A stretch of 64,000 nucleotides of DNA, taken from the NCBI GenBank assembly GCA_009746045.1, contig RPFO01000412.1, positions 408,992 through 472,991 of the forward strand, given 5' to 3'. This DNA comes from Mesostigma viride. Its lineage: Eukaryota; Streptophyta; Mesostigmatophyceae; Mesostigmatales; Mesostigmataceae. Position 1 is the stretch's first letter; each line of letters starts with the position of its first letter. A program made the position numbers and the translations under genes. Shown in pieces: positions 19,446 through 48,162 of this stretch. The notes beneath the pieces were generated by a model, which was not told where the DNA came from, made no database searches, and saw nothing but the letters and a program-made list of their open reading frames with translations.

Positions 19446-20287
19446 AGCTCCTTAAGCCACGACGTGGGAGCTATCAGATGTAGGTCATCCCCGTGCAGCG
19501 AAGCATACACTGGTAGGCCTTCCCATTGCCCCAGAAACAGACAGGGGTCTACAGGAGAAACCTTCAAGTTGCAATGCTCCTTCAGGAAACGGTTGAGAGT
19601 CTCCCTCCAGATTATTGGACTTGACCTCAGGCCCTCCAGGCCCTTGAGGATTTTAAGGAACTCAGTGTGAATGTCCCTTTTCCATACAGCAGGCACCCTG
19701 ACATAGAAAGGCGTCTTGCCCTCCCACTTTTCCTGTGCCACATCTGCATCCCCCTCCAGAAATGCCCTCTTGAAGTCTACCACCACTGAGCCATAGTCCA
19801 AGCCCTTGTTGAGAAGGCCTAGAAATACACACAGCAGCAGCCTCCAAGTGTCATGCAGCATGCCAGGGGTATACAACTCCTCAGCGGTGCACTCACCAGT
19901 ACCCTTGAACTCATTCAGTACTGGCCTGACGTGTGGTACCTTGACCCCGTCCACCTCCTTCATCTTGATGACAAACTTGAGCTTGAGTAGACGTCGTGCA
20001 GGAGGCAGGTCATTGACAGGTTCCACGCATTTCTTGGAGATCCAGTCCTCCCCAGATTTAATCAGACCCAGTGTGACCTGGGGACACATAATGGGAGAGG
20101 ACATGAGCTTCACCAGGCCTTGGTAGTTTATAGGGCTGTGTCCAGCAAGTGAGTGAGGACCAATGCCCAAACTGCTTGGATGACTAGCAGCTGGCAATAT
20201 GAGGTCATCAACCAAGGGCTCCTGCCCCTGGCACACTTGCACACGCTTAACCGTCCTGGTTACTGCACGTGATAGGTGAGTGGTCCT
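19446..20287 (-). pseudogene. pol: Pol of element B, fragment 3: reverse transcriptase core
   Basis: The ORF contains LKLKFVIKMKEVDG, the ELYTPGML signature, the first catalytic Asp in VVDFKRAFLEGD and the catalytic box LHGDDLHL. It is bounded by element D on its low-coordinate side and element F on the other. Element A (34133-37606) gives the uninterrupted version of the same protein. Confidence 0.88.
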
Positions 20288-20813
20288 TGTCTGAGGTTAT
20301 GCCCACCTCTTGCCGTGTATTTATGCTAGGTAGTCTAGCCGTGTGCTATTCCAACTTATCGCATCACATTTTATATAGTGGCGAGTGAGATATTTAGTGC
20401 CGATGGTCCTATTCCGGCACTGAGCGTGCAATATGTGTGGCGATAATTAGAGTGGCCGTACCTATGTCCACGTCATGATGCGCCTGCACCTGTGCGCAGT
20501 ACTTTCTAGAATGTGCACCGTATGCATGCATTCGACACCACTAGTGATGCTGACCTGTCATTTGTGCCAGCCGTTAGATTGTCGCCAAGGGTAGTGCCGA
20601 CCCCATGCCACCGTGCATGATTTTAGGGTTGGCAACTCCACGAACTCTCCCTTTTTTTCCTTGCTAGCAAGTGACGATGTAGCAATTTAGGCTAATGGCT
20701 GCCCGATGGCAAGGGCAATGCCATAGCCGTGCTGCCAATATGCGTTAAATAATTCTAATGAATTACGTCAATTATCATGTTGACCAAGTAACGCATTATA
20801 CATATTTTAAACA
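20288..20813 (+). repeat. 5' LTR of element F
   Basis: The 526-bp LTR begins TGTCTGAGG and ends AAACA. It is followed by the primer-binding sequence TGGTATCGGAGC. Confidence 0.93.
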
Positions 20814-21772: not shown

Positions 21773-22298
21773 TGTCTGAGGTTATGCCCACCTCTTGCCG
21801 TGTATTTATGCTAGGTAGTCTAGCCGTGTGCTATTCCAACTTATCGCATCACATTTTATATAGTGGCGAGTGAGATATTTAGTGCCGATGGTCCTATTCC
21901 GGCACTGAGCGTGCAATATGTGTGGCGATAATTAGAGTGGCCGTACCTATGTCCACGTCATGATGCGCCTGCACCTGTGCGCAGTACTTTCTAGAATGTG
22001 CACCGTATGCATGCATTCGACACCACTAGTGATGCTGACCTGTCATTTGTGCCAGCCGTTAGATTGTCGCCAAGGGTAGTGCCGACCCCATGCCACCGTG
22101 CATGATTTTAGGGTTGGCAACTCCACGAACTCTCCCTTTTTTTCCTTGCTAGCAAGTGACGATGTAGCAATTTAGGCTAATGGCTGCCCGATGGCAAGGG
22201 CAATGCCATAGCCGTGCTGCCAATATGCGTTAAATAATTCTAATGAATTACGTCAATTATCATGTTGACCAAGTAACGCATTATACATATTTTAAACA
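21773..22298 (+). repeat. 3' LTR of element F
   Basis: This 526-bp copy matches the 5' LTR. It is preceded by the purine tract and followed by the duplication GTCCT. Confidence 0.93.
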
Positions 22299-23092
22299 GT
22301 CCTGAAATTAATCAGTGGGACCTGACCAGCCCCTTCCTTAGTCAGGAGAGAGGACGTGATCACTACCCCATCCTGGCATAGGAAATTCTGCCCCAGAAGA
22401 GCAGGTCCCTGATAGCCCTCCAAGACACAAAAAGCAGTGTCCTGTCCAAGGATAGGAATGGATACCTCACCCAGTACCTTCACGTGTACCCCGCCACTGA
22501 AGTCAGACACAAACTGATAGCTGGGTTCAGTCATGCTGTACCCTGCTGCAGCTCTGGTCCCAATGATGGAAACCTGAGAATTAGTGTCTACCTCTAAGGC
22601 AGTGTCCAGCCCCAGATTGCCATGCCACCTGAGCTTGGCTACCTTGGGCTGCTTCTTGGCCCTTTGCAGAGCCCCAATTAATCCAGCCAAACTTGTCCCC
22701 CTGGGCTTGGTTAGAGCCTTGGGCTTGACAGTTGACTCCCCAGCTGTTGACCTTGCAGCCTGTTCAACAGGTACCTCTGCAACCTGGCCAGGGCTGACAG
22801 ATTCCCCTGCAACAGATGTGGTCGTTGCATCAGTGATGTCACTTGGGACCTGAAAATCCTGCAGGTCCTGTGAGCCTTGTGCCTGACTGCCCTCATTCAT
22901 CAGGTTAGGCTTGACATATGACCAACTCAGCCGGTGCACATGCTTTGGTTCGTCCTCTATGCTGACCAAGCATGCGTGGCTAGCTTCATCAACCTGGGTA
23001 ACCACCCCAGGACTCCAGCTACCACGTTTGCCATAAAGGCTAGGTTCCTTCCAAGCTAGGACCTTCTGACCCACTTGTGGCTCCAGCATCTT
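22299..23092 (-). pseudogene. pol: Pol of element B, fragment 2: integrase C-terminus and protease
   Basis: The fragment opens with the integrase C-terminal module (GKRGSWSPGVVTQV). A Pro/Ala linker follows, then a retropepsin-like domain with EVDTNSQVSII (catalytic Asp; the usual Gly is Asn) and ALLGQNFL (the hydrophobic-hydrophobic-Gly element). The protease thus lies after integrase and before reverse transcriptase. Element G separates this piece from the integrase core, and element F from the reverse transcriptase. Confidence 0.85.
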
Positions 23093-23097
23093 CCAAC

Positions 23098-23213
23098 AGT
23101 TACGTTAAATAGTGCCGGAACCTTTTGCCGCCTGAGGCAAATCGGTCCGTAACACTATTTTGCCCGGAATAACCACTTCCGGGCACCCAAGTTAATTCGG
23201 CCGAATTAACTTG
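23098..23213. repeat. Half of the 207-bp palindromic repeat at the left end of element G
   Basis: The segment starts AGTTACGTTAAATAGTG exactly at the target duplication and runs through the palindrome centre GGCCGAATTAACTT before breaking off. It is the same family as the palindromes at 3392-4639 and 9051-9836. Confidence 0.9.
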
Positions 23214-23340: not shown

Positions 23341-25222
23341 CTAGGCGTCCCCCCTATGGGGCAGGGTTGCCTGCTTGCCATAGGGGTTCATCAAGTGGTA
23401 CAACAGCTGATATTGTTCAGCTGCCTGCTGAGGCACTTTAGTGAGTGCATCAGCAGCGTTGTGTTTGTCCTCCACGTGACGGGTGGACTCCCAGTAGGTG
23501 GACTCCTGTTTCAGGACCACCCAGTCAAGATCAGTGTGGACAGCATAGGGGTTAGCAAGGAAACTGAGGACTGACTGACTGTCAGTGAGCAAGTGTGCCA
23601 CCACCCCAGCATTGCTGCCTGCTTGCATCTGCAACCAAACCAGCACATGATTCAAGTACCTGGCATGAAGCACTGCTGACACCACTGCCCTGCACTCAGC
23701 AGCATTGCTGCTGACAGCCTTGCGTCTATGCAACCGGCTGTACCATGAAATGAGAGACAAGGGTGCATCATCATTCTGCACAAAATACAAGCCTGACTCC
23801 CTTGCCTGCATCTTGGTAATCTGCCTGGACTCCATGGAACTATCCATCATAGCTTGGATGTGAATGGTTTTGTGGAGATCCAAGGAGTGCAAGATAAGGG
23901 GAGGGCCTCCTGGAGAGTTTTGGTGATGGCTTTGTGACCTACTTGCATCAAGACATCATCATCAACTCTGCTAACCACAGCCAGGTGAGGTGCACACGTT
24001 GAGCACAACCACCCCAGCTTGCCTCTAATGGTAGGACAGGCTCCAGGTTTGATTTTTGTTTGCAAAACCTCCAAGCAGCTGTGCATGTAATCATTGGGAG
24101 AGTAGAGTGCACACACCCACTGGTTTTGATGCTGCTGGAGTTGTAACATTGTGCCACAAAATTTTATGGCAGTGGTGCCCAGCTCTACTTGCTTGCCAAT
24201 CTCAAAATGCTGTGACACTTGTTGAATAAAATCATCCACAGCACGCCTTGGCCCAGCAATCAGCTGATCATCCCCATGCCACACAAAGGTGAGAATGCCA
24301 TGAGGGTGTGGGACCACAAAGAAGCAAGGGTCTATGTCATCATATCTAGCCCCTAACTTTTCAAACACAGCCTGAGCTGACATCCTGAAAATGCGAGGAG
24401 CTGATTGCAGCCCTTCAACACCTATGTTAGCTTTCAGGTACTGCTGAGGGATGTGTTTTGCCCAAACTCTGGGAGTGGAGACTACGTACACCTGACCATG
24501 CCACACTTGTTGTGCTATCTCAGGTGAGCCTTTCAGGAAAGCCCTTTTAATGTCTGTAGCCTTACAGATATAGTCATCCCCATCATTGAGATGACCCACA
24601 AAGACAGACAGCAAGATTTTTAGGGATGTTTGCTGAATGCCTGGCGTGTACAACTCTGCCTCTGTCAGATCAGTGGTGCCCTTGAACTCTGTCACACAAG
24701 GTCTAGCATGAAAGATGACTGACCCATCTGCTGCTGGCTTATGTTTACACACAAACTTCAGGCGCAAGTGCTTGCACCCTGCAGGCTTTTTGTCAATAGG
24801 TGTGACAGGGGAGTATGAGAAGGACTAAGAGGATCTGGCACTACCCATTCTTCCCTGGCCTTGTTAAAGGCCTCCACCCATTTTAGGAATCCTATGTGTG
24901 TGCGACAGTCTTGCTCTATCTGTTCATAAGAAAGAGGAGACATTTTAGCCACATCATGCTTGCCCAATCCAAATGAGTTGGGATGAAGTTTTTGGTTGTG
25001 AACCAGGTCTGCCACACAGGGTTCTTGCCCTGGGGCATACTTGGGTGTAGCAAATTTTACAGAAGCAATGTTGGTGTTAAGAAGTTTTTCAAGAGAAATT
25101 TTGAAATGATTCAGATCAACACCACCCATGTCCTGGATGGATAGTCTATCACTGGATATGAGGACACCAGGGTAACAGAGAAAAGGATCCCCCAATAAAG
25201 CATTCCCTTTATAACCTTCCAA
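23341..25222 (-). pseudogene. pol: Element G pol, reverse transcriptase and RNase H with frameshifts
   Basis: Three overlapping frames are needed. 25222-24758 is the protease end (ALLGDPFL) and the start of RT. 24767-23847 holds the RT core with ATDIKRAFLKGS and WHGDDQLI. 23892-23341 is RNase H with MMDSSMESRQ, SSNAAECRAV, LTDSQSVLSF and HNAADALTKV. The shifts near 24770 and 23870 make it non-functional as it stands. Confidence 0.82.
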
Positions 25223-27082
25223 GACCTGAAAAGGAGTGGGGATACCAGTATAGTCAACATGACCTGACCTAATACCTTGAGGGATGACTGCCCTGAGAAA
25301 TCAGCCACATGGTGCCAGGGTGAAGGTTCCAAAGGCAAATGGGGCACAGCCAGGGCACTGATAATGCTGACCTGGGCTTGTGTGTCCACTGCAACCATAA
25401 ATGGGCTATTGTCATTCTGCCCAACCTTCCCCACCTTAGCTGATCCTGCAGCAGTTTGAGCTTTGGCTCTATGAGCTGCTTGTAAAATGCGAACAGCGTC
25501 TGCTAGGCTGCGTTTGGAAGGTGCAGCTAGTGGCTGAGCTATGTTCACACTTGTAGAGGTGATAGGTTGCTGATCACCTGTTTTGCCAATGTGACCCTCT
25601 GCTGCAGGGGGCCAATCCTGCAGTGACTGCCTGCAATCATCAAGGGTGACCTGGGTGTCACAGTGGGTGTGGCTCTCACACTCACCAGTGGGTGTTCCAA
25701 ACAACCACTCACTGGGCAACGCTGGGATGCCAGGCAACTGTACAGGGCTGTCGGCCAACAGCTCTTCCTCCTCTGCCACGTCTGACACAGTTGGAAAATA
25801 CAATTTCATCCTGTGAGGTGAACACCTGTGAATTTTTCCCGTGTCATTGTGTTTAACTAACACTGTCCTGCCAGTGGTGTTAAACTTTAGGATGGTGGCT
25901 GGCCCATGCCAGGTACCCACCTTGCCTAGTCCCGACTCCTTGTAGAATAGGACCTGATCCCCTTCTCTGAAGGTGGGACGTGGATGCTTTGCATCCTTGA
26001 CAGCTAACCTGCTAGCTGTCTGTGCTCGCTGTGCGTTGTAGAGGGCTAGTACCTCAGGTGGATAAATGCCTGCATGCAATCCATCTGGTGTAATGACCAC
26101 CCCTTGTGGGGTTTTCATGAGTGGCCTCCTGTTGAGGACTTGGCACAACCTGGTGGACCACAGAGCTCTGTCAGCATAGGACCCACTGTCAGCCAGCAGA
26201 TTGCCATCTTCTTTGGCTACAAGGGTTTTAATGGACCTGATGGCCCTTTCAATAATGCCTTGCCTCTCATGATCTTCTAGCCCAGCCAGATCAATAGCCT
26301 CACACCCTGGTTCATTGGCAAGACATGTGAACTGCTGATCCAGTAACAATGCCTCCACAGGGTAGTACCTGGCCTGAGCAATCAAGAGAGCCCTGAGCAA
26401 CTGTGTCTTGTCCATTCCAGGTAATGGTTCAATGGTTGTGTACCTTGACCATGCATCTTTAAGTGCCAAGTAAGATTGTCCTTTGATATGAAAGACATCT
26501 CCTACCACCCTGCCCTTGCTCTTAGGTGGGGTAGCTACATGCCACTTAGGGGGTTTGGGTGCATTGAACTGACAATGCTGGCAGTGGGATCTGACCACCT
26601 GGCATGCACGTCTGAGTGCTGCCCCCCCTATTGCTGCTGCCACCACCTCTGCACTCACTTCATGCCCATAAAGGAAATGCAACTGCAAAGCAAGCTCCTG
26701 AAAACTGATCTGAGCATCCTCTGCTGGGGACACTCTGCACACCTTGGGAACCATAGATGTGAAGGTTGGTTTAGAGACATAATCTTCTGAAACCAGCTGT
26801 AGCACCTTTCCAGAACTGCTCACTGCTCTGACAGTGGGGCATGCAGAAGAAGAAGGTGAAGCAGGCACACTCAAGCCAGCATGAGAGGGAGACTCACACT
26901 TCTTGCCGTAAGGAGGCCGCTTGCAGTCCTTGGGGTCACCGTGGGGCGGCCCGTGGCACTTGTGGCACAGGACGTCCAAATGCCCCAGCTCGTCCACGTT
27001 CTTGCGGCAGGTGGGCCGCAGGTGGTACTTCATGCCACAGCGGGTGCACCGCTGAGAAGACTTGTCCTCCTTGTCCTGCTTC

Positions 27083-29880: not shown

Positions 29881-30337
29881 AGTTGGATGGAGACTAGGGA
29901 CGACGAACAACTGCGAAAGCTGAGAGCGAATGATGATTGTATTACAATAATACAATGAGAGAGAGCGATGAAAGCTGAGGGCTCAGAATGGAACTGGGCA
30001 GACTCGGGTGCTGTGGCACTCCCCAGTGCTACGCCTATATGCCTATGGCGGTGCTACCTGCAGCACACGACCAGTGGACAAGTGTACACTGCAATGCCAT
30101 GCGACCACGTCACTAGCAACCAGCTAAGACTCGGCCCGTCAGGCCCGGCTACACCGGACCTGGCGGGTCGAGCTAGCACCTAGGAACAGTCTGGCACTAA
30201 CCGCACATCGGTCCACATGACACCTCAGGACCGTACACCCTGCCGTACTGTACTGAGGTGTCCCGCTCAGCCGCGGTAGGCAATACGCGGCGCGCAGGCC
30301 GGAAATCCGTGTGTCAGCCTAAGCATCTCATCTAACT
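29881..30337 (-). repeat. 5' LTR of element G
   Basis: The 457-bp LTR in the sense direction begins AGTTAGATGAGATGC next to the duplication CCAAC and ends CATCCAACT just before the gag leader. No second copy is present at the other end of G, so its limits rest on the AGTT...AACT rule and the target duplication. Confidence 0.6.
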
Positions 30338-30342
30338 CCAAC

Positions 30343-31471
30343 CCCGGTCCTTCTCCCTCAGCTTGGCAAAGGTGACATGTGCAGCATGTTTCCAGCCCTC
30401 CAGCACATGTGGTGGGCACAGGCCATGATATAGACCCATTGGGCTGACAGCAACTCCATCATAGTAGAAGTTAACCCTGCTGTTCAGCTGCTGCTCCACG
30501 TTCCTCAGCCATGCACTCCTGACAAGTGCAGGTGCAGATAAGGGTACCCAGTCTTCAGAGATAATCAATTTCTTGACCTCCTGGATTGCCCTCTCTATAG
30601 CACCCTGCTGCCCATGAGCCTCCCTAGGTGTAACCAGCAACTCAGGAAGGGTGGGATCACCCTTGAGATGCTGAAACTGCATGTCCACCTGGATCCTTGT
30701 GGTAGGAAACTTGGCTCTTACATTCTGCAGGGCAGCCAGCAAGTACCTGTTCTTCATAGAAGGTAAATGCTCCAGCACCTTGTATTTTGTGTACCTGTCC
30801 ACGCACACCAACAGTTGCATGCCCCTGATGTGTTGGATATCACACTGCAGATCACCAATGCTCTGAGGTATAGCTTTGGCATGTGATTTCCTGGGCTTGT
30901 TGGAGGACAACTGGCACTTACACCGTGAGGCAGCTTGCTGACACGCCTTAAGAAGGGGTGCCCTGCCCATACGGAAGGCAAAGTTGTTTGACAGAGAAGT
31001 GGCATGCCCAAACATGTTGTGGATTCGGGCACCCAACTCCTGGTACACAGAGGAAGCAGTCCCTGGCACAGTCAGGACTGTGCTGTCAGGTTGTCCAGCA
31101 TCACCATGCTGTCTTCCATCCTGTTCTGACTCAGAGTCTGAGTCACCCTGCTCATGCCCAACACCTGGACCGCCAGCAGGGACCACATGCATACCACCAG
31201 AGGCCTTCACACCCCTCTGTGGTTGTACATTGGTTTCTCTCAAAATGAGAGGTCCACCCTCGTGCCCAGCACAAGGATGCATGGGGTCAGACATTCTTAC
31301 AGCTGCACCAGCTGTCAAGGACGTCTTCATAGGAACCTGTACCTCTCCAGGTGACCTGGGGCCACCATGAACCTGGAGATCACCCTCTTGTTGCCCAGAT
31401 ATAAAATCTGCATTGGAGCACCTGGCCTCCCCCTTGGGTGAATTAAGGTGTGTAGGGGTTGCCTCAGACAG
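30343..31471 (-). pseudogene. pol: Pol of element B, fragment 1: integrase N-terminal zinc part and catalytic core
   Basis: The frame opens directly after the gag stop. A Ser/Gly/Asp-rich linker (to about 31030) is followed by the zinc part (HNMFGH...CKCQ). The core has LQCDIQHIRG (first Asp), QVDMQFQHL (second Asp), and HGQQGAIERAIQEVK (Glu). The D-x-Q-F motif replaces the copia DNGxEF. The piece ends in KLREKDRGW where element G is inserted. Confidence 0.85.
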
Positions 31472-31474
31472 TCA
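31472..31474 (-). promoter_or_regulatory. Candidate readthrough stop codon between gag and pol of element B
   Basis: CAG TGA CTG TCT is read in one frame across the gag/pol boundary. TGA followed by CTN is the context known for efficient stop readthrough (UGA-CUN). No second stop occurs until the break caused by element G. Confidence 0.6.
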
Positions 31475-32581
31475 CTGCTCCTTGTTGTCTTCTTGCTGAC
31501 TGCCCTTTGAAGGCTGGCCTGCCTGGGACTTGTTGTTGTTCTTGTTGTTGTTTTTCTTGTTGCTGCCCTGGCCCTGGGTCTTCTTGAAGCTGGGACACTC
31601 CTTCTTGATGTGCCCCCACCCCTTGCACAGGTAGCACTGGATCTTTGACTTGCCCTGGCCTCCTCCCCCGTTGTCAGGCGCGTTACCCTGCCTGGGCTTA
31701 CCACCCACCCTCCTGAACACCGACTTGGCATGTGATTGCCCGTCAGGGTCGGGTGAATGGTTGGCCTTCCGCTTGTTGTGGTTGCCCCCACGTCCTCCTT
31801 GGCTTCTGTCAGCCTCAGACGTCTTGGAGCCCCCCTGGGCACGCCCACCTGCGTGGGTAGCCTTCACAGCTGGCATTCCACCCTCAAACAGCTCCTCTGC
31901 CTCGAGTGCTTGTTTGATTATGACCTTGTAGGCCTTGAGGGTAGAGTGTGGGGCACACATGACCTTTAAAGAGCCACGTGTTGCCTTGTCCAGCCCAGAA
32001 ACCTTGAGCCAGTTTGTCAGGGCTATGCTGTCAGCGACATTGAAGCCGTGAGCCCTGCCCTCCTCAACCATTTTACAATAATTGAGGAAGTTCTGGATAA
32101 GGTCTCCCTTAACCTCCCACCCTTGGTATTTATCCTGCCAATGGATCCCCACTTTCTTCCGTTGATCCTCTAGCAGCTCCCTCAGCTCTGCCACGTAGAC
32201 TGCCCAGGCCTTGTTGGCCTTCTTGCACTCTCTAGTGAGGTCTTTAATCTGATCTGTGCACTTGCCAAAAGTCTGGCTGCCTATCCAGATCTGATAATAG
32301 TTTGTACCACCGTACAAGCTTGGAAACCCCTCTAGTCCTTCCACAAACTCCTCTGCCTGCTTTGGCTTTGAGTCTGAAGTGACAGGTTGCAGCTGATTAA
32401 CAATAAGGAGACCCTGGGTGGTGAGATCATATCCAGAGACAGCATGTGTAGTATTATTATTCAAAGGGATATTAGTGATTTCTCCGGTGACCCCCACGTC
32501 ATCTACGTGAGCGGTCCCGCTACCAGCACCCCCATTATTATTCCCACTGGCTAGGCCCTTGCTACGGCGTCCCTCAGCCAT
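31472..32581 (-). CDS. gag: Gag of element B, 369 residues
   Basis: The start is ATG 32579-32581. It has a helical capsid-like part (about 75-245), a basic Gly/Asn/Lys-rich stretch, and the CCHC knuckle CYLCKGWGHIKKEC. An Asn/Lys/Gln-rich tail ends at a TGA (31472-31474). The codon after the TGA continues in the same frame into integrase, so pol is probably made by stop-codon readthrough. It is homologous by eye to the gag of element A. Confidence 0.85.
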   Translation of the reverse strand: MAEGRRSKGLASGNNNGGAGSGTAHVDDVGVTGEITNIPLNNNTTHAVSGYDLTTQGLLIVNQLQPVTSDSKPKQAEEFVEGLEGFPSLYGGTNYYQIWIGSQTFGKCTDQIKDLTRECKKANKAWAVYVAELRELLEDQRKKVGIHWQDKYQGWEVKGDLIQNFLNYCKMVEEGRAHGFNVADSIALTNWLKVSGLDKATRGSLKVMCAPHSTLKAYKVIIKQALEAEELFEGGMPAVKATHAGGRAQGGSKTSEADRSQGGRGGNHNKRKANHSPDPDGQSHAKSVFRRVGGKPRQGNAPDNGGGGQGKSKIQCYLCKGWGHIKKECPSFKKTQGQGSNKKNNNKNNNKSQAGQPSKGSQQEDNKEQ

Positions 32582-32703
32582 GGTAAACTACACTAGCTGT
32601 GTATGGCCCTGAGCTAAGCAGCTGGAAAACAAAAGATAGGTAGATATGTACAATCTGTCAAAAAGCCGCCTGCCCCGGTGCCGACCGCGCCACCATGCCG
32701 AAT

Positions 32704-33489: not shown

Positions 33490-33516
33490 TTTTCTTGGTA
33501 CGAATATTGTAATACG

Positions 33517-34132
33517 AGTTGAATGAGAGTTTACCACCGAGGGAATCCATGGCTCTTGCAGGAAAGTTGCCTTTATTATAATGAGCAAACACAGACGTAA
33601 GTCACGTCAAGTCCGAGACTGCACGTAGCACAGACGACAGGGTCGTTATGCCAAGAGAGCGTGCACGCAAGAGCTAGCGCCCCAGTGTGACCAAGTCACT
33701 CATATAGCTTGCTAGGGACGCGTCCAAGTATTCAGCTGCACTGTCACAGCTGAACTGTCAATCAATTGATTACACAGACTCTGGCACGCCTTTGGCGCGC
33801 AGATCTATCAATTGTCCATACGGCTAGTCCTGTGGACCTATCCGTACACTAGTCAGCATCAACTGTCTCATAGGTCCTGGCGCGCTACAGTGCGCCTACC
33901 TATCAATTGACCATCAAGTCCTGTACAAGTCCTGTCAACGTCCTGCGGACTATCAAAGTGACACTTGTACATCCTGTGTCCGTACGCGCCCACAGTGGCG
34001 CGCCGGGTACTGTCGGCACAGCCTAGGAAACGTCATAACTTTTACGTTCCTTAACCAAATGAGGCGTTCAAGGTGCCGTTGGAAAGAGCGTAACAATCTC
34101 TATCCATCTAACGTAAATCCTTTACGTTAACT
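33517..34132 (-). repeat. 5' LTR of element B
   Basis: The 616-bp LTR matches 12025-12640. The duplication GATGG follows at 34133-34137, where pol of element A resumes. Confidence 0.92.
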
Positions 34133-37100
34133 GATGGGGCAAGCTTGGTTACCACAGAGAGTATGCCAGCTGTAGCTGCAGTGGTTACTCGCCAACGTGC
34201 CCGCCATGGCGGTGCTGAGCCTGAGGTAGGACCTGGTGATGTGGACCCAGGTGGATCTCAGAAGCATTCTGACCGTGCAGGACTGGCACAGGATGGTCAG
34301 GATGAGGATAGGGCTGGAGACAGTCTGACAGGCACGACCCTGGTGCCTCCTGTACATAAGGGATCTGTACATACCTTGAGTGCTAATAATGACAATAAAA
34401 GATTTTCTCTCTTATATGACATTGCCTCAAGGTTGCATACCATGTTTGGCCATGCAGCTCAGTCTTTGCAAGTTGCTAGACGGCTGGGAGGAAGTGAGTT
34501 GTACTCCATCTGCCAACAGGTTGCTCAAGCTTGCAAGTGCAGGCTAGTTGCTAGAAAGCCCAAGCAGTCTCATGCCAGGACTCCTATTTTGCAGCCAGGC
34601 CATGTGCAGGTAGATATTCAGAGAATCAGGGGTTTGAAGCTGCTGGTGGCAGTGGACAGATATACCAAGTACAAGACCCTAGAGATCCTGCCTGACATGG
34701 AGAAGCCTACATTAATTGCTGCTCTGAAGTTGACAAGGAGCAGGTACCCTGGGTTGGAGTTGTTGCAGTGTGACATTCAGTTTGAGTGCTGTGAGAACCT
34801 GCCAGAGTTTCCAGAGTTGCTGATTACACCCAGGGAGAGCCACGGCCAGCAAGGGGTGGTGGAGAGAGCCATCCAAGAGATCAAGACTGTGCTGCTGGTG
34901 GAGAGGATTCCAAGGACGTCATCTGCCATTGTGACATCTGCATGGCTACGTTCTGTGGAGGACAGGCTGAACCTGAGGACTCCCATGTTCTTTGGTGACA
35001 TTGCCATCAATCCTCTTATGCTGCATACCAGGATGCTGCCAGCTGATGCTGAACAGGCATGGAAGGAGAAGCTAGAGGCCAAGTTCCTCAAGCTGAGGCA
35101 GAAAGACAAGGGCTGGAGTGTCCTAGAACCTAACGTTGGACAACAGGTTGTTGTGTGGAAGGAACCAAGCTTTCCAGGGAAACGTGGCAGCTGGCATGAT
35201 GGGGTGGTGACCCGAGTAGAAGCCGCTGGCCATAAGTGCTGGGTGGCCATTGATGGCTCCCAAGCAGTGCACCGTCTGTCCTGGTCAAAGATCCGTCCCC
35301 GGGGAGGTAATCAAGGAGACCTCTTCCAGGTGCCCGTTGGTGTACAAGGCGGGGGTGACGTGGAGCTTCCTGATCAGGGTGCTACAGCTGTATCGAGCCC
35401 TCAGGGTGACCCTGGCCCGGCCCCTGGGGTACCTTCACATACGGTGGTTGGGCAAGCAGGCGGACAGGCTGCACCTCCGGAACGGCCCGACACCAGGCCT
35501 AGGGGTGTGCGTCTATCAGATATTGTACAGGCTTTGCAAAGAGCCAAGAAGGAGCCTAAGGTGTCCAAGCTTGTCCAGTTGGATGAACCTGAGGTAGCTG
35601 CCATGGAGATAGATACCAATGCACAGGTTTCTGTCATGGGACCTCAGCATACAGGAGAACTGCTGGTCGGAGAACCAAGTTGCCCCTGGGTGTCTGATTT
35701 CAGTGGTAGGACGCATCTAAGGGTGTTGGGAGAGGTTACTGCCCCTGTCATGGGTGTGGATGTGACCTTCCTTGTCCTAGAGGACTATGATGGCCCTGTG
35801 ATTTTGGGTCAGAATTTTCTGGGCAATCCTGGGATTTCTATCAGAGCTACAGCTCTGAGAAGAGATGGCTGGGGGATGATTCCCCTAGAAAATTTCAGGA
35901 CAACATTTCCAGTCAGGTGCAGGGCCAAGCCGGTCAAGGGTGTAAAATGGGATGAAGGGGAGGTGCCCCCAGCGGCCAGTTTGGTGATTCCAGCTGTGTT
36001 GCACCCCAGCAGTATTGGCATAACTCACAGGAGCCTTGCTGCACACTCTCCTTTGACATATGACCAGCTGGTCCAAGAGATGAGCTCGCCTACTTTGTTT
36101 GAGGCTTGGAAGCTCGCCTTCTCCAAGGCATTGGAGGAGTGGTTGCAGTTTGAGTGTGCTGCACCAACAGACAGACGTCCCCCAGCATCAAGGAAGCTTG
36201 CTTTGAGATTTGTGCTGAAGAGGAAGGTTGTGGATGAGGTATCAGTGCCCCATGTCAGGCCTGTCCTGAATGAGTATCACGGCACGGGGAGTCTGCCAGG
36301 AGAGGAGCTATACACGCCAGGGATGCTACACGACACATGGAGAATTTTGCTATGTCTCTACGTGGGGTTGCTGAACAGGGGAGCAGCTATGTCATCAGTG
36401 CTGCTGGACTTCAAGAGGGCATTTTTAAAATCTGATCCAGAAGTGGCCAGGAGGGTGTGGAAGCAGGATGAGCCTTACTGTGTTGAGGTGCCTGCCATCT
36501 GGAAGCTGGAGCTGCATCAACAATTCCTGGTTATTCTGAAGGGCCTGGAAGGACTCAGGTCGAGCCCAATCATCTGGAGACTCACGCTGCAGGAAGCTCT
36601 GATCAGTGAGTGTGGCTTGAGAGTGTCTTCAGTTGATCCCTGTTTGCTGCTGGCCCAATGGGAGGGTCTGCCAGTGTATGCTAGTTTGCATGGAGATGAT
36701 CTGCATTTGCTAGCCCCCACGACCTGGCTGAAGAAGTTTATTCCTGTCATCAGTGGCAAGTTTTCACTGGGCAAGGAGCTGTGGCAGGAGCCCAACAAGC
36801 CTGTAGTGTTCTGTGGAATGCAGGCTACCCTGTTCAGGAGGGACGGGGAGTGGAGTATCAGGCTTCAGGCTGGAGGAGATTATAAACAGACCATTGTGAA
36901 GGCCTTGCCAGAGAAGATCACCCAGGCTGCAGGACCTGAGTTGAGAGGCATGTGGGCCTGGTTTGCCAGCATCTGTGGTCCGTCTTTGATGGTCCATAGC
37001 AGAATGCCTGATGAGGTGCTTGAGGATGAGAAGCCTCGAGTCATAGCCCGGTTGGTGGAGAGTACCCCTGATCTGATCTTGTCTGGGATTGACTTTGCCC

Positions 37101-37606
37101 AGCCTATCACCTTGGAGATCTTTGTTGACAGTTCCATGGATGCTCGCCAGGTTACCAAGGTCAGGGGGAGATCTGCTGCTCTGTTTGCTTTTTATCAGAG
37201 CAGGGCAAGTTTGTTCAGCTGGTACAGCAGACTGCAGAAGAGGGTCTGTATCAGTTCAGATGTGGCAGAATGCAGGGCCATATGCGAGGGGATCCAGTCC
37301 AGCCTGTACATAAAGGAGTTAATGCTGGAGCTGGCTTCAGTTACCCCTTGGACCTTGCAGATGGAGACGTTGTTGCTAACAGACAGCATGGGTATGGTCC
37401 AGTTTGTTCACAAGCAGCTGGCCAGGAGCCGGGACCTGGATTATTTGTTGCTGAAGGAGTTGGCCAGTTTGGTTGACTTGAAGCATATCCCTGGCGAGGA
37501 GAACCCTGCTGATGCATTGACAAAGCTGCCACACAAGGCCCCAGCCCAGTACAATGTACTGAGGAAGCTCATGAATGCTGACTGTCAAGTCGGTCTATCT
37601 GTCTAA
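34133..37606 (+). CDS. pol: Pol of element A: integrase-protease-reverse transcriptase-RNase H
   Basis: The frame is open from the end of element B and would continue from gag before that insertion. Counting residues from 34145: integrase zinc part about 98-132 (HTMFGH...CKC), catalytic Asp 157, Asp 210 in CDIQF, Glu 240 in GVVERAIQ, C-terminal module about 325-385. The retropepsin-like domain is about 485-590 with EIDTNAQVSVM and VILGQNFL. Reverse transcriptase is about 650-870 with LLDFKRAF and LHGDDLHL (849-852). RNase H is about 985-1120 with FVDSSMDARQ, SSDVAECRA, LLTDSMGMV. The tail is NPADALTKLP. RT and RNase H are copia-like; the order INT-PR-RT-RH is not. No internal stop is present, although the element is old and split. 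Confidence 0.92.
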   Translation, partial: DGASLVTTESMPAVAAVVTRQRARHGGAEPEVGPGDVDPGGSQKHSDRAGLAQDGQDEDRAGDSLTGTTLVPPVHKGSVHTLSANNDNKRFSLLYDIASRLHTMFGHAAQSLQVARRLGGSELYSICQQVAQACKCRLVARKPKQSHARTPILQPGHVQVDIQRIRGLKLLVAVDRYTKYKTLEILPDMEKPTLIAALKLTRSRYPGLELLQCDIQFECCENLPEFPELLITPRESHGQQGVVERAIQEIKTVLLVERIPRTSSAIVTSAWLRSVEDRLNLRTPMFFGDIAINPLMLHTRMLPADAEQAWKEKLEAKFLKLRQKDKGWSVLEPNVGQQVVVWKEPSFPGKRGSWHDGVVTRVEAAGHKCWVAIDGSQAVHRLSWSKIRPRGGNQGDLFQVPVGVQGGGDVELPDQGATAVSSPQGDPGPAPGVPSHTVVGQAGGQAAPPERPDTRPRGVRLSDIVQALQRAKKEPKVSKLVQLDEPEVAAMEIDTNAQVSVMGPQHTGELLVGEPSCPWVSDFSGRTHLRVLGEVTAPVMGVDVTFLVLEDYDGPVILGQNFLGNPGISIRATALRRDGWGMIPLENFRTTFPVRCRAKPVKGVKWDEGEVPPAASLVIPAVLHPSSIGITHRSLAAHSPLTYDQLVQEMSSPTLFEAWKLAFSKALEEWLQFECAAPTDRRPPASRKLALRFVLKRKVVDEVSVPHVRPVLNEYHGTGSLPGEELYTPGMLHDTWRILLCLYVGLLNRGAAMSSVLLDFKRAFLKSDPEVARRVWKQDEPYCVEVPAIWKLELHQQFLVILKGLEGLRSSPIIWRLTLQEALISECGLRVSSVDPCLLLAQWEGLPVYASLHGDDLHLLAPTTWLKKFIPVISGKFSLGKELWQEPNKPVVFCGMQATLFRRDGEWSIRLQAGGDYKQTIVKALPEKITQAAGPELRGMWAWFASICGPSLMVHSRMPDEVLEDEKPRVIARLVESTPDLILSGIDFAQPITLEIFVDSSMDARQVTKVRGRSAALFAFYQSRASLFSWYSRLQKRVCISSDVAECRAICEGIQSSLYIKELMLELASVTPWTLQMETLLLTDSMGMVQFVHKQLARSRDLDYLLLKELASLVDLKHIPGEENPADALTKLPHKAPAQYNVLRKLMNADCQVGLSV

Positions 37607-40178: not shown

Positions 40179-40340
40179 TGAGCCAGTATGGGTGCTATGT
40201 ACATATAATAAGGAATCCAAGCTGACTGTCATGCCCAGCGGGTTGTGACTTGTAGTCTGGGGAGGATATCCAGTACCCATTGTGTGTGTTTGTATGTAGA
40301 CTTGTGTGAGCTGCTACAGCTCAAGAAAAGAAAGGATTGG
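40179..40340 (+). other. 3' untranslated region of element A, second part, ending in a polypurine tract
   Basis: It resumes after the LINE-like insertion. AAGAAAAGAAAGGATTGG at 40323-40340 directly precedes the 3' LTR and is the presumed plus-strand primer. Elements B, C and E have the same kind of tract ending GG. Confidence 0.75.
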
Positions 40341-41036
40341 AGTTAACGCCAAGCGCATTGGCGTGATCCTGATTCAGCATTTCTCTGCGATTCCAGCGTC
40401 ACCGGAACGAGTTCATTCCGACAAGTATCAAGAAAGTTATGGCGTTCCGACTTCCCGGTCGCGCGCGAGCGCGAGCCGGCTGTTCGTCTAAGTCGGACGT
40501 GAATATTTGCCGACGACATATGGGGTCGACAGTAATTCCTGGGCTGACAGGAATTAGGTGCTGTACCTACGACGGTATTGGATTAATACGTCATACGCAG
40601 GAAATAGGAACCTAACCTGTGGTCTGTTGGTACCGCAGGCTTAGTCCTGGACTTCTGGGTGCAGATGCAATAGTCACTGTGGACTGTGCTCTGTGGTCAC
40701 TGTGCCTGTATGGCAGACCTACTGTATAGGAGTTGGGCGCTGTACAGGTAGTGAATACTGTACCGGGGGTGTTATTACTGAGCAGGCCTCCTAGGCTGCT
40801 CAGGACTAGCAAGCACAGTGCACAAGTATATAAACAATAGGCCAGTGCCAAATGGAGATCTCTTGCGAGCCCGCCTCACGTGTTGTGCCTTGACTTGGCA
40901 AGCGCGTGTACAAGCCTCAAGTGTGTGAGCGCTGTAACATTATCCAATTTTAACAAAGCTCCGTTTCCAACCATATTCACACATTGCTGCATTGCAACCA
41001 TATCCTTCACATTGCGTTTGCTAGGAACGTTTAACT
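40341..41036 (+). repeat. 3' LTR of element A
   Basis: The 696-bp LTR begins AGTTAACGCC and ends CGTTTAACT. It differs from the 5' LTR by several substitutions and small indels. What follows (GCGGGTCACC) is gypsy sequence, with no target duplication. Confidence 0.85.
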
Positions 41037-41707: not shown

Positions 41708-42189
41708 AGTTGCAAATAAATGGAATGCGATGTAAATCAGAAAGCATGAAATGAACGTTGTGTTTATTGTTCTCATACGTTATTGTCGTTCCTGCATAAT
41801 TCGTCTTCGTTGCGCATATATTCTATTGCGCTTGGCACCTTCATCAGTCTTGCTGAATATCCTACGTGGACATGCATTCCGTGTAGTTCAGTGCATGCCG
41901 CGTGTTAGATACTTCTAGAATCCTCTAGGAGGTACCAAGGCAGATGCGCATACATAATAGGCCGATAGTCGGCTCAGTCCTATTGACAGTACTACACCGG
42001 CCCTTGACCAGCCGGTGACGTGGAGGCCTGGGAGACGCCCACATATTCTACGTGGCGTTATCCCATTGGCGAGTACTAGTGAAGTACAGCCATTGGCCCA
42101 ATACTACAATAAAGTATATTGTAGTAATCTGTACAAGATCCTCTATCTCTGAGGACCCATGTGGACCCTAGATGGGTCTCCAACCAACT
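41708..42189 (-). repeat. 3' LTR of element C
   Basis: The LTR in the sense direction begins AGTTGGTTGG and ends TTTGCAACT. In the sense direction it is preceded by the purine-rich AAGGGAAAGAATGGCTGG at 42190-42207. Confidence 0.94.
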
Positions 42190-42457: not shown

Positions 42458-45400
42458 TCATGACAAGGGTTTCCCAGCCATCATGGACCGCAGCAACTGG
42501 TACCCATTAAGGGCCAGTCGTGGAAGCTTGGTCATAGCATCAGCAGGATTTGAGTGTCCTGGCAGATGTATGGTTATACAGTGGCTGGACAACTCCTTTG
42601 CCACAAGGTAGTCCAAGTCAGTAGTAGTGGCCCTCTCATTCTTGATAAAAGAGACCACGGGCTTATTATCACAATAAACCCTGACATCAATCACGGGTTG
42701 AGGTCTTATCTGACTCAGACACCATAAGAGTAGCTCTCTTATGTATATGGCATCGCGAATGCACATGGCGTATGCCCTGCACTCAGCGGTGTCAATGCCA
42801 GCAAACCGCCTCCTCTGAAGGTTACTGGACCAGTATACCAACGAGGGCTGTTTGCCTTCATTCCTGATGGTGATCAGGCATCCGGCTCTGGCACCAATCT
42901 TGTTGGCAGATCTAGACTCTTGGCTAGCATCTGTGTAGGCGTCTATGATGATGCGCCCATGCCAGTCTACACCGGACAACACCAAGTCAGGAGATTCATT
43001 GAGGCAGCTCTCCAGGCGCCTCCTTCCTTCTCCTACAACAACAGAGTCTGGCATCCTACTCTGTACTGCCAGGTCAGGGTTAGTTGTGGCAGCCAGCCAA
43101 CCCAGTTGACCTTTAACCGTAGGGGCATTCTCCTCAGTTACTCTCTTGGGCAACTGAGTTATTACTTTTTCTTTATACCCCTTCGCCGATTGCAGCTTAA
43201 GATGCCATCCTTTGTCATCCTGGAAAAGGGTACAGCCAATGCCACAGTAAGGTACCTGGCTGTTTTTACTAAACCATGCTCTGGTACCAATAGGGGACTT
43301 GTCATTGAGCCTTTTATAGGTCTCATTCAACCATCCCTTGGGACCAATGCGTTGCATATCATCTCCATGTAAGGTAGCCCAGGTGGGTTGTCCTTTGGAT
43401 TGCCCCACAAAGAGACAATAAGCAAGATGAGATTGTTGCATCTGACATCTCTCCTGGATGGCAGGAGCAATGGTTTCATACCAGATGACTGGACTGCTGA
43501 CCAGTCCTTCCCAGCCCACTTTAGGCTGCATGTAGGGATGACCTACTTCAGCTATCCAGCATGCTGGGGTCTTAACACAACAGGGTCTTTGAGCTTGCCA
43601 AGTGGCTCTGGCCACCTGAGGATCACCATGCAAAAAGGCCCTGGTGAAGTCATCAATTTCTGCTCCATAATCCAAGCCATAGTCCAAAGCACCAAGGTAC
43701 AGACTAAGAATAAGCCTGAGAACAGGATGTGACAGGCCAGGAGTGTACAGCTCCTCCTTATCAAAGTCTGTAGTACCATGGAACTGGGTCACGACTGGAC
43801 GTGCGTTTGGTATGGGAGGCTCACCAAGCTTGCTCTTCATCTTGCATACAAAACGCAACTGAAGCATTTGAGCATTGGGTGGAGGTTCTGAAATGCCTTC
43901 AAAAACATCCAGCGTTTGCCACTCCTGGAGCGCACGCGCCAATGCTACTCGCCAGGCCTCAAGGCCAGCGAAAGTGTGACAATCCAGGTCTACATCATCA
44001 AAGGACATGGGGCTATGAGCAGCAAATGACCTTTTTGTGAGACCAAGAGAAGTCACACTGAGCTGGGCGGGTTCTACCAGCTCAGAAGCTGGGGGTATAT
44101 CCCTTCCCCATTCTGCTCCTTTTATTGAACCGACACAGGCGGTCTTCCAATTTGCCTTCTGGAACATTTCAAGAGGCAAGAGACATCTGAATGATTCCAG
44201 AGGAATTGGGTCACAATGGGTTTTTAGGAGACTCTTTGTGTTATTGGGGCCATCAACAATGGTAACACCGGGAGTCACCAAGAATGGCTGGCCAATGAGA
44301 GTGGGTCCCTTATAGCCATCAACAACACAAAGTGTCAAAGACTCACCCAAGAATGGGATAGTGATATTCCCAAGAACTTGATGATCAGTGTTACCCGCAA
44401 AGTCTTGGACAATAGTCCATGGACTGGGTTCAAGGGAATACTTATCCAGCAAAGCATTAAAGGGCGAGGTGACAGAGACCTCTGCTTTGGTATCCACATC
44501 AAAGCCATCAAGGTCCATGCCCTTCTCTAGAAGAGAAGTTATTTTGGCAATCTTTAGTGAGGGCTTGAGCTTCTTTACAATATCCCGAAGCTCTTGAGGA
44601 TTGCCTCTCTTGCCGAGCTGAGTGTTCAACCTGGACAACCCCTCCTCAGCTTGTCTTCCTTGGGCTGGAATCCCATCAGTCTCCAAGGGCAATGGCTTAT
44701 TACCAGGGTAATTGGATCCAAGCTTTGGCTGTTCAGACTGAAATATGTTATCCACCTGCCCAGGGGTCTCAAGCCCATGTTCCAACGGCCGGAGCTTCCG
44801 GTGCTGATCAGACACCCTATTATCCAACAAGTCAGCTTCATCCATATCATCCTGTGATATCCCAGTCAATGTCTTAGGCTGAGCTTGCTGAGTAGTAGGC
44901 TCCAGTTGATGGGAGGCCGCCCTTTCTGGTAGTTGGAGTCCAGCCTGTTCACTGGCCAAAGGTGGACAGGAAAGATTGGGAGATCCAAGTGCCTCTTCAG
45001 GGGCCATAATTTCCAGGGGATTTTCTTGAACGTTCATTGGATCTCTCTTCAATCTATTCCAAGCCAGATGATAAGTGGTCCCATTCCAGACCACATCAGC
45101 AGTTTTCATCTCCAGGTCAACTGAGGTTATGGTCCCTGGACCCTGCCAATAACCACGTTTACCAGGAGCATTTTCTTTGTGGAAGATCACCTGGTCTCCC
45201 ACCTCAAATTTTAATGATTCTCCTCTCTGTTTATCCTTTTCACAGAGATGAGCATACTGTGCCCACCTCTGCTTACTCCATGCCTGCATGATGTCATCAG
45301 GGTAGAGGCCACCTGCTAGTCCACGAGGTGAGACCAGCCGTGGAACACCACGCACCTTGATAGTATGAAAACGGTTGTTCATGGTGTTTTCCACTTTTGC

Positions 45401-46387
45401 AGCACCCAAACACCTGACAGCAAAAGTTGGTTTAAACATCTCAGGATAGTCCCCGGATATTACCAACTTCTTAAGCTCCTGTATATATCTGTCAACCTTG
45501 CCTTGGGCTTGGTGATCTTCACGACCCACAATCCTTAGGAAAGGCAGATCAGAGTATTTGGTCAGGCAGTTAAACTGCAAGTCCATCTGCAGCTTATGAA
45601 TAACTGCAAACTTCTGCAGAATAACAAGAACTGCGGCATGGAGAGTATTCTCATCCCCTGCTGCCATAGGTTCAATTCCAATGTAGCCTGACCATTCATC
45701 CACAGCCACCAAGTAAGGCAATTGCCTGTAATTGGTGAAGTAGAGGATATCAGCTTGTAGATTACCCCTACCATCTGCAGGATGCTTTGCATGACGTTTG
45801 GAAGGCTTGTTAGCACACAATTGGCACACACAATGTTCTCTGACATCTTGATAAGCCTGCCAGAGAGCCTTGTTATTAATGGCTTGAACAAGCCTAATGG
45901 CATTGTTTCCATGGCCACAGGCATCATGCAAACTCTTAGCCAGAGTCCTAAGATTAATACAATCATTAGGCTCAGGCTCTTCAGGACATGGACGGGCATC
46001 CACGTTCCTGGCAGAGCAAGAGTCCAAGTTTTTATTATCAATATAACAAGGATTATTGCTCTGAGGAGCTTGACTGTTAACAATATCAATGGGTGCTTGG
46101 CTACAAACAGGAGCTGCACCACATGTATTGTTCACAGATACGTTGCTCACCTGGGCAACACCATGTGGCATCTGTCTACAACCAGGAGCAGATCCACATG
46201 TATTATTTACAGGAAGAGTTCCCTCTGGGGTACTCTTTTTATTCCAGGCATGGATAGGAATGCCACAAACAGGGGCACTTTTACTGCTGCTCACTGGGGC
46301 AGCTTTACGGTCAGTAGGGGTTACTGCTGGAGCCCCTACCACCTGGCAGGCCTCATCTGCCATGAGTCCACTCTCATCAGCATCCAT
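42458..46387 (-). CDS. pol: Pol of element C, 1309 residues: integrase-protease-reverse transcriptase-RNase H
   Basis: The ORF is uninterrupted. A Ser/Asn/Cys-rich N-terminal linker (about 1-140) precedes the integrase zinc part (HDACGH...HCVCQLC). The core has LQADILYF, KLQMDLQFNC and QGKVDRYIQELK near residue 297, where the third acidic residue is Asp, not Glu. The integrase C-terminal module (GDQVIFHKE...GYWQGPGTI) follows, then a long linker. The protease has FDVDTKAEVSVT near residue 632 and LIGQPFL. Reverse transcriptase has EIDDFTRAFLHGD and LHGDDMQRI near residue 1006. RNase H has AYTDASQESR, IDTAECRAYA, YCDNKPVVSF and ends NPADAMTKLP. Expression probably needs a -1 shift from gag, because the frame extends past the gag stop. 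Confidence 0.93.
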   Translation of the reverse strand: MDADESGLMADEACQVVGAPAVTPTDRKAAPVSSSKSAPVCGIPIHAWNKKSTPEGTLPVNNTCGSAPGCRQMPHGVAQVSNVSVNNTCGAAPVCSQAPIDIVNSQAPQSNNPCYIDNKNLDSCSARNVDARPCPEEPEPNDCINLRTLAKSLHDACGHGNNAIRLVQAINNKALWQAYQDVREHCVCQLCANKPSKRHAKHPADGRGNLQADILYFTNYRQLPYLVAVDEWSGYIGIEPMAAGDENTLHAAVLVILQKFAVIHKLQMDLQFNCLTKYSDLPFLRIVGREDHQAQGKVDRYIQELKKLVISGDYPEMFKPTFAVRCLGAAKVENTMNNRFHTIKVRGVPRLVSPRGLAGGLYPDDIMQAWSKQRWAQYAHLCEKDKQRGESLKFEVGDQVIFHKENAPGKRGYWQGPGTITSVDLEMKTADVVWNGTTYHLAWNRLKRDPMNVQENPLEIMAPEEALGSPNLSCPPLASEQAGLQLPERAASHQLEPTTQQAQPKTLTGISQDDMDEADLLDNRVSDQHRKLRPLEHGLETPGQVDNIFQSEQPKLGSNYPGNKPLPLETDGIPAQGRQAEEGLSRLNTQLGKRGNPQELRDIVKKLKPSLKIAKITSLLEKGMDLDGFDVDTKAEVSVTSPFNALLDKYSLEPSPWTIVQDFAGNTDHQVLGNITIPFLGESLTLCVVDGYKGPTLIGQPFLVTPGVTIVDGPNNTKSLLKTHCDPIPLESFRCLLPLEMFQKANWKTACVGSIKGAEWGRDIPPASELVEPAQLSVTSLGLTKRSFAAHSPMSFDDVDLDCHTFAGLEAWRVALARALQEWQTLDVFEGISEPPPNAQMLQLRFVCKMKSKLGEPPIPNARPVVTQFHGTTDFDKEELYTPGLSHPVLRLILSLYLGALDYGLDYGAEIDDFTRAFLHGDPQVARATWQAQRPCCVKTPACWIAEVGHPYMQPKVGWEGLVSSPVIWYETIAPAIQERCQMQQSHLAYCLFVGQSKGQPTWATLHGDDMQRIGPKGWLNETYKRLNDKSPIGTRAWFSKNSQVPYCGIGCTLFQDDKGWHLKLQSAKGYKEKVITQLPKRVTEENAPTVKGQLGWLAATTNPDLAVQSRMPDSVVVGEGRRRLESCLNESPDLVLSGVDWHGRIIIDAYTDASQESRSANKIGARAGCLITIRNEGKQPSLVYWSSNLQRRRFAGIDTAECRAYAMCIRDAIYIRELLLWCLSQIRPQPVIDVRVYCDNKPVVSFIKNERATTTDLDYLVAKELSSHCITIHLPGHSNPADAMTKLPRLALNGYQLLRSMMAGKPLS

Positions 46388-46425: not shown

Positions 46426-47667
46426 CTAGTTTTTCTGCTGCTGCTTCCTCTTGCGGCCACGAGAGGTATTGCCACCCCGCGGCTGAGAAGCATCACCACC
46501 ACGCGGCTGGGAAGCGTCACCACCACGCGGCTGAGAAGCGTCGCCACCACGAAGGGCACCGCTCTTGACGGCTTGGGAGATCTGCTGCAGCAGCTTGAGG
46601 ACCTCCATCTGGGTATCCTTGGGTCCAGCGCCCGCCTTGCTCCTGCAGGCAGACGCATCATGTCCAGAATTGCCACAAGACTTGCACTTGCGAAAGTAGC
46701 AATCCTTAGCCAGATGGTTAGTCCTATTACAGAAAGTGCAGGGAGGGAAGGACTCAGAATTAGCGACAACCTTACCCTTACATGCGCGGCGTGTGTGCCC
46801 GGGCTGCCCGCAGTTGTAGCAGAAGATTTCCCGTTGCTGCTCCATCACCATGGCGACACGAGGCACCTCCGCGGCACCTCCTTCTCTGGAAACACGGGTT
46901 TGATTCGTCAGGAGCTCCTTGAGGTGAGCTCTGCATCGGTGAGTGTCGCACAGGTAACCGCGGCAGTTGGCGACCAAATTCCGCTTCTCGGATTCGGACA
47001 GAGCACAGTTTTGGATCCATCGGAGATTCACCGCCTCGTCAGGCCACCGGAGCCCCTGCTTCTCCAGCATGTCGTAGTAAGAGTTGAGGTGCTCGATGAT
47101 GGTCTGCCCGGGCTTCGGCTTTGCATCTACAAATTCCTCGATCTCGTCGCAGGTTTTGGCAGTGATAGAACGAAGAAAAGTCTCCCTCGCTCGGCGCAGA
47201 AACTCGAACGGCGACCACCGCAGACGCTGTGCTCTATCCAGCAGCGAAATCCACTCTGGGTGGTTTTTCTCGCGGTCTCCCAGCGGGGTTCCACGAAGAA
47301 ACTCCAGCCAGTCCGGAATGATGTCTCGGTTGCCCGCGAGCCTGCGGAAAAACGGCCCAAGAGAGCTTACAAAGCGATCCCGGTCTGCTTGAATAGCACC
47401 AGGCACCAGCGGGGCTGGAACCCATTTCTTGATTGCCGACAGCAGCTTCGCCTCTTGAAGCAAGGTCTCCCGCCGAAGCACTTTATCACGCGCACGCTGG
47501 TTGTCACTACTAGTACTTCCCTGCCCGCAGCCCTCCTCCCGGGGCTGGTCGGACATATTCTTATTGTCATCCCTGTGCTCGCCTGGGCCAGGGTCGACAG
47601 AAAATTGAGCCGGTCCGTGCTCACCAGGGCCAGACCTCTGCTCTGAAAGATTGTCGTCCGAAGACAT
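46426..47667 (-). CDS. gag: Gag of element C, 413 residues, three zinc knuckles
   Basis: ATG 47665-47667 (MSSDDN) lies 14 bases after the 5' LTR; an upstream in-frame Met inside the LTR is less likely. It has a helical retrotransposon-gag domain (about 90-260) with WLEFLRGTPLGD and the SYYDMLEKQG helix. Three CCHC knuckles follow (CYNCGQPGHTRRAC, CTFCNRTNHLAKDC, CKSCGNSGHDASAC), then three GGDASQPR repeats and a basic tail. No leader ORF precedes it, unlike A and B. Confidence 0.88.
   Translation of the reverse strand: MSSDDNLSEQRSGPGEHGPAQFSVDPGPGEHRDDNKNMSDQPREEGCGQGSTSSDNQRARDKVLRRETLLQEAKLLSAIKKWVPAPLVPGAIQADRDRFVSSLGPFFRRLAGNRDIIPDWLEFLRGTPLGDREKNHPEWISLLDRAQRLRWSPFEFLRRARETFLRSITAKTCDEIEEFVDAKPKPGQTIIEHLNSYYDMLEKQGLRWPDEAVNLRWIQNCALSESEKRNLVANCRGYLCDTHRCRAHLKELLTNQTRVSREGGAAEVPRVAMVMEQQREIFCYNCGQPGHTRRACKGKVVANSESFPPCTFCNRTNHLAKDCYFRKCKSCGNSGHDASACRSKAGAGPKDTQMEVLKLLQQISQAVKSGALRGGDASQPRGGDASQPRGGDASQPRGGNTSRGRKRKQQQKN
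46429..46435 (-). promoter_or_regulatory. Candidate -1 frameshift heptamer at the gag/pol boundary of element C
   Basis: The last gag codons read CAG AAA AAC TAG. The pol frame is -1 and open across this point (GAA AAA CTA GAT). The heptamer G AAA AAC resembles the A AAA AAC class of slippery sites but has G in the first position. Confidence 0.5.
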
Positions 47668-47680
47668 TGCAATGAATACA

Positions 47681-48162
47681 AGTTGCAAATAAATGGAATG
47701 CGATGTAAATCAGAAAGCATGAAATGAACGTTGTGTTTATTGTTCTCATACGTTATTGTCGTTGCTGCATAATTCGTCTTCGTTGCGCATATATTCTATT
47801 GCGCTTGGCACCTTCATCAGTCTTGCTGAATATCCTACGTGGACATGCATTCCGTGTAGTTCAGTGCATGCCGCGTGTTAGATACTTCTAGAATCCTCTA
47901 GGAGGTACCAAGGCAGATGCGCATACATAATAGGCCGATAGTCGGCTCAGTCCTATTGACAGTACTACACCGGCCCTTGACCAGCCGGTGACGTGGAGGC
48001 CTGGGAGACGCCCACATATTCTACGTGGCGTTATCCCATTGGCGAGTACTAGTGAAGTACAGCCATTGGCCCAATACTACAATAAAGTATATTGTAGTAA
48101 TCTGTACAAGATCCTCTATCTCTGAGGACCCATGTGGACCCTAGATGGGTCTCCAACCAACT
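47681..48162 (-). repeat. 5' LTR of element C
   Basis: This 482-bp copy matches 41708-42189 except for one visible base (G near 47763 against C near 41821). The duplication TAGAG follows at 48163. Confidence 0.94.

Follow-up and report, generated by a model that had tools for sequence, protein, structure and literature searches.

The order of protein domains in pol is a textbook criterion for sorting long terminal repeat (LTR) retrotransposons. Does a lineage exist in which the protease sits in the junction between integrase and reverse transcriptase? The question is raised by a 64,000-nucleotide stretch of the Mesostigma viride genome (contig RPFO01000412.1, positions 408,992 to 472,991, forward strand; here "the window"), which holds four related retrotransposons that we call A, B, C and G. 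A first-pass annotation of the letters had proposed that their pol runs integrase (INT), retropepsin-like domain (PR), reverse transcriptase (RT), RNase H (RH). We confirm the order INT-PR-RT-RH in all four.

Domain order of pol

Element A has its pol in a single open frame (34145-37606, + strand) of 1153 amino acids. The integrase residues Asp157, Asp210 and Glu240 lie where the first-pass annotation had placed them, upstream of the EIDTNAQVSVM and VILGQNFL segment (MEIDTNAQ from residue 487, VILGQNFL from 552), and are followed by the RT box HGDD at 849 and by RNase H further downstream. When the window is searched by tblastn with P0011, a relative from the ENA protein set, the INT, PR, RT and RH pieces are collinear in 4/4 elements, which bears out the proposal that B, C and G share the order of A. 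The C pol as query likewise returns four copies: A (+), C (-), B (-, in pieces) and G (-, with broken frames). P0011 itself has the same order. All four proteins put through a shuffle test (A, C, P0011 and the PR piece of B) carry the motif pair D[TS]x[AS]x[VIL]S...[IL][IL]GxxFL, and for none of them did any of 20,000 composition-shuffled versions reproduce it; that test left out G, whose PR spans two frames. The pol features are:

34403..35314, +, element A integrase: HHCC zinc-binding region, D157-D210-E240 core, C-terminal domain
35498..35932, +, element A retropepsin-like domain (DTNA ... VILGQNFL; pol residues 452-596)
35942..37603, +, element A reverse transcriptase and RNase H (HGDD; tblastn, motifs)
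30332..31471, -, element B integrase, N-terminal part and core (tblastn, Pfam)
22295..23104, -, element B integrase C-terminal part, then retropepsin-like domain (PR 22705-22295, DTNS ... LLGQNFL)
19331..20296, -, element B reverse transcriptase (RVT_2 below cut-off)
13595..14392, -, element B end of reverse transcriptase, and RNase H (tblastn)
45038..45958, -, element C integrase
44126..44608, -, element C retropepsin-like domain (DTKA ... LIGQPFL; pol residues 629-789)
42461..44095, -, element C reverse transcriptase and RNase H
25255..26709, -, element G integrase and first retropepsin-like part (DTQA), same frame as the gag knuckles
25091..25270, -, element G second retropepsin-like part (LLGDPFL), other frame
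23389..24821, -, element G reverse transcriptase (RVT_2) and RNase H, broken frames

The domain between integrase and reverse transcriptase

The proposal would fall if the segment after INT did not fold as a retropepsin; the predicted fold is that of a retropepsin. Structure prediction for the A-type segment gives a model of modest confidence (predicted local distance difference test, pLDDT, 80-89 in the core), and the best 50 of the 341 PDB chains that Foldseek returns at E <= 10 are all retropepsins, none of them at E <= 0.001. A prediction for a longer piece of A (residues 323-805) has a mean pLDDT of 41 and is not used. The assignment as a retropepsin is thus supported by predicted fold; the fold and the position of the Asp-Thr pair resemble those of retropepsins and of the RVP domain of DDI1. 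A PDB sequence search with the PR profile returned no protease.

Several observations weigh against a working protease. The active site reads D-T-[NKQ]-[AS] in 5/5 segments, with Asn, Lys or Gln at the position of the Gly in D[ST]G; retropepsins and DDI1 usually have D[ST]GA there. Curated protease cut-offs are not reached: PF13975 matches three of the five segments at E <= 1 (best E 0.0032, 18.4 bits against a cut-off of 28.2), and the C and B segments give no match at that threshold. The missing Gly leaves even the catalytic activity of the domain in doubt. These points favor a pseudoprotease, in which the retropepsin fold would serve as a dimerisation or spacer module while a host protease processes the polyprotein, or no processing is needed. 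We consider this unlikely: Asp and Thr are invariant across the five segments, of which the other four are 33-59% identical to that of A, numerous A and C copies keep open frames, and no second protease domain was found.

The region between gag and integrase

The first-pass annotation saw no protease motif between gag and integrase, and our searches agree. Pfam scans of the gag-to-INT regions matched no retropepsin model; they covered the C gag, the 178-amino-acid N-terminus of the C pol, the gag-INT linkers of B and G, the A and B gag, and the first 130 matched amino acids of L031, an uninterrupted A copy. By motif search, D[ST]G is absent from the A, B and C gag, from the A and C pol and from the INT piece of B, and reading the N-terminal part of A copies free of insertions by eye shows none either. 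It is therefore very improbable that a strongly divergent canonical protease hides upstream of INT and that the retropepsin-like domain before RT is an additional one. What speaks for that arrangement, and so against ours, is that the linkers from knuckle to HHCC measure roughly 175-240 amino acids in A, B and C (by eye), room for a retropepsin. In G, which counts against it, about 80 amino acids in one frame separate the last gag knuckle from the HHCC region. On the supporting side there are also peptidase-named Pfam matches in low-complexity gag tails, Peptidase_M74 in C (E 0.05) and Presenilin and PFF1_TM in G (E 0.79 and 0.92), all far below cut-offs, which we take as chance. The positive control, element D8 of the same window, has the canonical order of gag followed by the copia protease model Pol_BBD (E 1.6e-12):

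15192..17363, +, D8 control, canonical copia gag then protease (Pol_BBD; Pfam)

This D8 reading frame holds gag and protease without an INT model, and its protease reads DSAAS, so that the Gly is missing there as well.

Anatomy, nesting and copy number

The first-pass annotation had described four elements with one domain order. The order is indeed common to all of them, but G sits inside B and its PR is split over two frames. B also encloses D10 (20288-22298) and D8 (14458-19445). Since B is inserted between the gag and the pol of A, the A pol begins immediately to the right of an LTR. Element C is intact, with LTRs 99.8% identical, TAGAG on both flanks and ends AGTTG...CAACT. No target duplication is seen at the LTR flanks of A, and no LTRs of G were found in the flanks searched. 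The remaining features are:

8105..8807, +, element A 5' LTR (AGTTAAC...GTTAACT; 95.5% identical to its partner)
40340..41036, +, element A 3' LTR (partner of 8105-8807)
10701..11957, +, element A gag with CCHC knuckle, separated from the A pol by inserted B
12025-34132, -, element B whole (LTRs 100% identical, GATGG duplication at flanks)
12025..12640, -, element B 3' LTR
33516..34132, -, element B 5' LTR
31472..32587, -, element B gag (INT next in the same frame past one UGA)
47681..48162, -, element C 5' LTR (AGTTGG...GCAACT)
41708..42189, -, element C 3' LTR (TAGAG duplication flanks the element)
46426..47709, -, element C gag frame with CCHC knuckles (about 66 nt overlap with the pol frame)

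Elsewhere in the window, a frame at 60707-62038 carries an RWP-RK domain, and a frame at 48938-51478 carries RVT_1 and RNase H of gypsy or similar type.

In the 440-Mb genome, 35/35 scored places encode a pol identical to that of the window's C over 1344 amino acids and stop-free, and the search with P0011 finds an open, stop-free A-family pol of 1196 amino acids in 38/38 scored places; the scored places are 35 of 9437 candidates for C and 38 of 10019 for P0011, both lower bounds. The PR motif and the N-terminal sequence of A occur in 30/30 loci read of the 38. Ten of the 35 C copies were fetched, and all ten start with AGTTGG, end with AACT and have 5-bp duplications (eight flagged by script, two with small changes inside the 3' end judged by eye; two of the ten have identical flanks and are possibly one site). 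Nested elements account for most of the breaks and interruptions in A, B and G. The idea that nesting, a chimeric assembly or the decay of copies produced the order artificially is nevertheless rejected as having next to no probability, given the intact C with its near-identical LTRs and duplication, the 35 further identical C pols over many contigs and the same order in P0011. The open, identical pols and the 5-bp duplications in many copies show that the layout multiplied recently and is not decay, and so many unbroken frames suggest that it works.

Among relatives, EukProt labels P0012, P0014 and P0016 as Prorocentrum lima and P0015 as Mesostigma viride. P0016 is identical to G at 203/205 residues and P0017 to A at 402/405, so either those datasets contain one genome or two very closely related ones, or there is contamination between them. 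The dinoflagellate spliced leader has 0 matches in the window at up to 3 mismatches, and viral contigs scanned with A, C and P0011 gave no relatives.

Integrase, reverse transcriptase and RNase H

The integrase is recognized by its alignment profile, which matches retroviral integrase cores in PDB (best E 0.0012); Pfam rve matches occur only below cut-off (B, E 0.0077; G, E 0.016). The acidic triad of A stands as first described. The D, D and E columns are kept in A, B, G and P0011, but the third acidic residue of the C pol (P0002, residue 334, QGKVDR) is Asp, not Glu, and this form occurs in at least 35 further identical copies. The RT active-site box is HGDD in A (849), C (1042), G (P0005, 183) and relatives, where the usual copia form is YVDD. 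RVT_2 (PF07727) passes its cut-off of 31.6 bits in G (36 bits, E 7.4e-9), falls below it in P0013 (30.7), B (28.4), P0014 (21.5), P0015 (21.3) and P0011 (15.5), and gives no match at E <= 1 in A and C; RVT_1 gives none at that threshold in a set of six proteins scanned with Pfam. RNase H ends in NPADA[LM]TK in A, C and P0011.

LTR ends and priming

The LTRs of A, B and C end in AGTT...AACT rather than TG...CA, and the 5-bp target duplications of the window copies are TAGAG for C and GATGG for B. Ten further A copies showed LTR ends at the predicted positions in 0/10 cases, so for A the ends are those of the window copy alone. At the inner border of the 5' LTR (8808 in A, 33515 in B, 47680 in C) a TGG-type tRNA primer site is missing, whereas D8 and D10 in the same window carry the tRNA-type site TGGTATCGGAG. 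The gag ATG of C lies about 13 bases past the 5' LTR. A search for self-priming found no complement of at least 8 bases between the LTR of A, B or C and the first 30 bases past it; D8 and D10, with their tRNA-type sites, gave none either, so the negative is limited to self-priming by this route.

Relationship to known lineages

The first-pass annotation read the four elements as a separate lineage with altered polyprotein processing. The order and the predicted retropepsin fold stand, the separate lineage is likely, and the changed processing is what we infer from them. A separate lineage is likely because the C pol is 33% identical to P0011 and 31-37% to A, Pfam hits are weak or absent, the ends are AG...CT and the RT box is HGDD. 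With Ty1/copia (Pseudoviridae) these elements share INT upstream of RT and a target duplication of about 5 bp in B and C. The RVT_2 match of the RT exceeds its cut-off in G and stays under it in B, P0011, P0013, P0014 and P0015; a further resemblance is the NPADA[LM]TK end of RNase H in A, C and P0011. They differ in that their protease follows INT instead of preceding it (the order PR-INT-RT-RH fails in 4/4 elements and in P0011), and in the AG...CT ends, the lack of a TGG primer site in A, B and C, and the HGDD box. Being copia-like by function while failing that order, they are termed here a copia-type lineage, not ordinary members. Ty3/gypsy (Metaviridae) also has LTRs, gag, retropepsin, RT, RNase H and integrase, but there INT is downstream of RNase H, and here it is upstream of RT.

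In its available text, the plant-centred survey of Neumann et al. 2019 (PMC6317226) assigns the order GAG-PROT-INT-RT-RH to 5410 copia elements and GAG-PROT-RT-RH-INT to 8453 gypsy elements, and states that sequences of unexpected order were removed as likely mispredictions. The available part of Kojima 2025 (PMC12440569) describes Troyka, a separate lineage that has CG...CG ends and 3-bp duplications among its marks. Troyka is thus like ours in being partly set apart by LTR ends other than TG...CA, and differs in those ends, the 3-bp duplications and the order RP-RT-RH-IN. Non-canonical LTR ends are known from other elements, according to PMC5659011, and dinoflagellate copia elements are mentioned, without domain order in the text available, in PMC5890265 and PMC11453091. 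Among the titles and abstract beginnings listed by searches of an open-access library, none describes the order INT-PR-RT-RH, which is not proof that it is unpublished.

Proposed expression and processing

The gag and pol frames of C differ and overlap by about 66 nt (46426-46492), with GAAAAAC directly before the gag stop, for which a -1 frameshift would be the simplest explanation. In B, gag and pol share one frame with a single UGA between them (CAG UGA CUG, near 31472), which suggests readthrough. A copies without an insertion also show, by eye, an overlap of the pol frame with the end of gag, the two being in different frames. We propose that gag would be translated first, and that a fraction of ribosomes would reach pol by frameshift (C) or UGA readthrough (B), giving Gag-INT-PR-RT-RH. 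Flanked by linkers, with INT upstream and RT downstream, the protease would have to free itself on both sides; it might dimerise within the particle and excise itself through these linkers. INT and RT/RH would then be parted by the release of the protease itself, versus the single INT/RT cut of Ty1/copia, and the integrase would insert cDNA with AG...CT ends, leaving 5-bp duplications. Taken whole, the account that we find probable is a copia-type lineage with an INT-PR-RT-RH pol, entry by frameshift or readthrough, and a self-releasing internal protease.

More tentatively, and here we would not put the chances quite at even, this further pol layout, the retropepsin site without Gly, the AG...CT ends and the lack of a TGG-type primer site may together mark a distinct lineage beside Pseudoviridae, perhaps not confined to a single algal or protist group, in which polyprotein processing, priming and end recognition follow rules of their own. 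Pipelines based on order may miss or mislabel such elements; unexpected orders were dropped from one large survey, by the text available (PMC6317226). A recently multiplied lineage with its protease in the INT-RT junction would show that domain order is not fixed, and would offer a natural experiment in which the influence of polyprotein layout on maturation can be studied.
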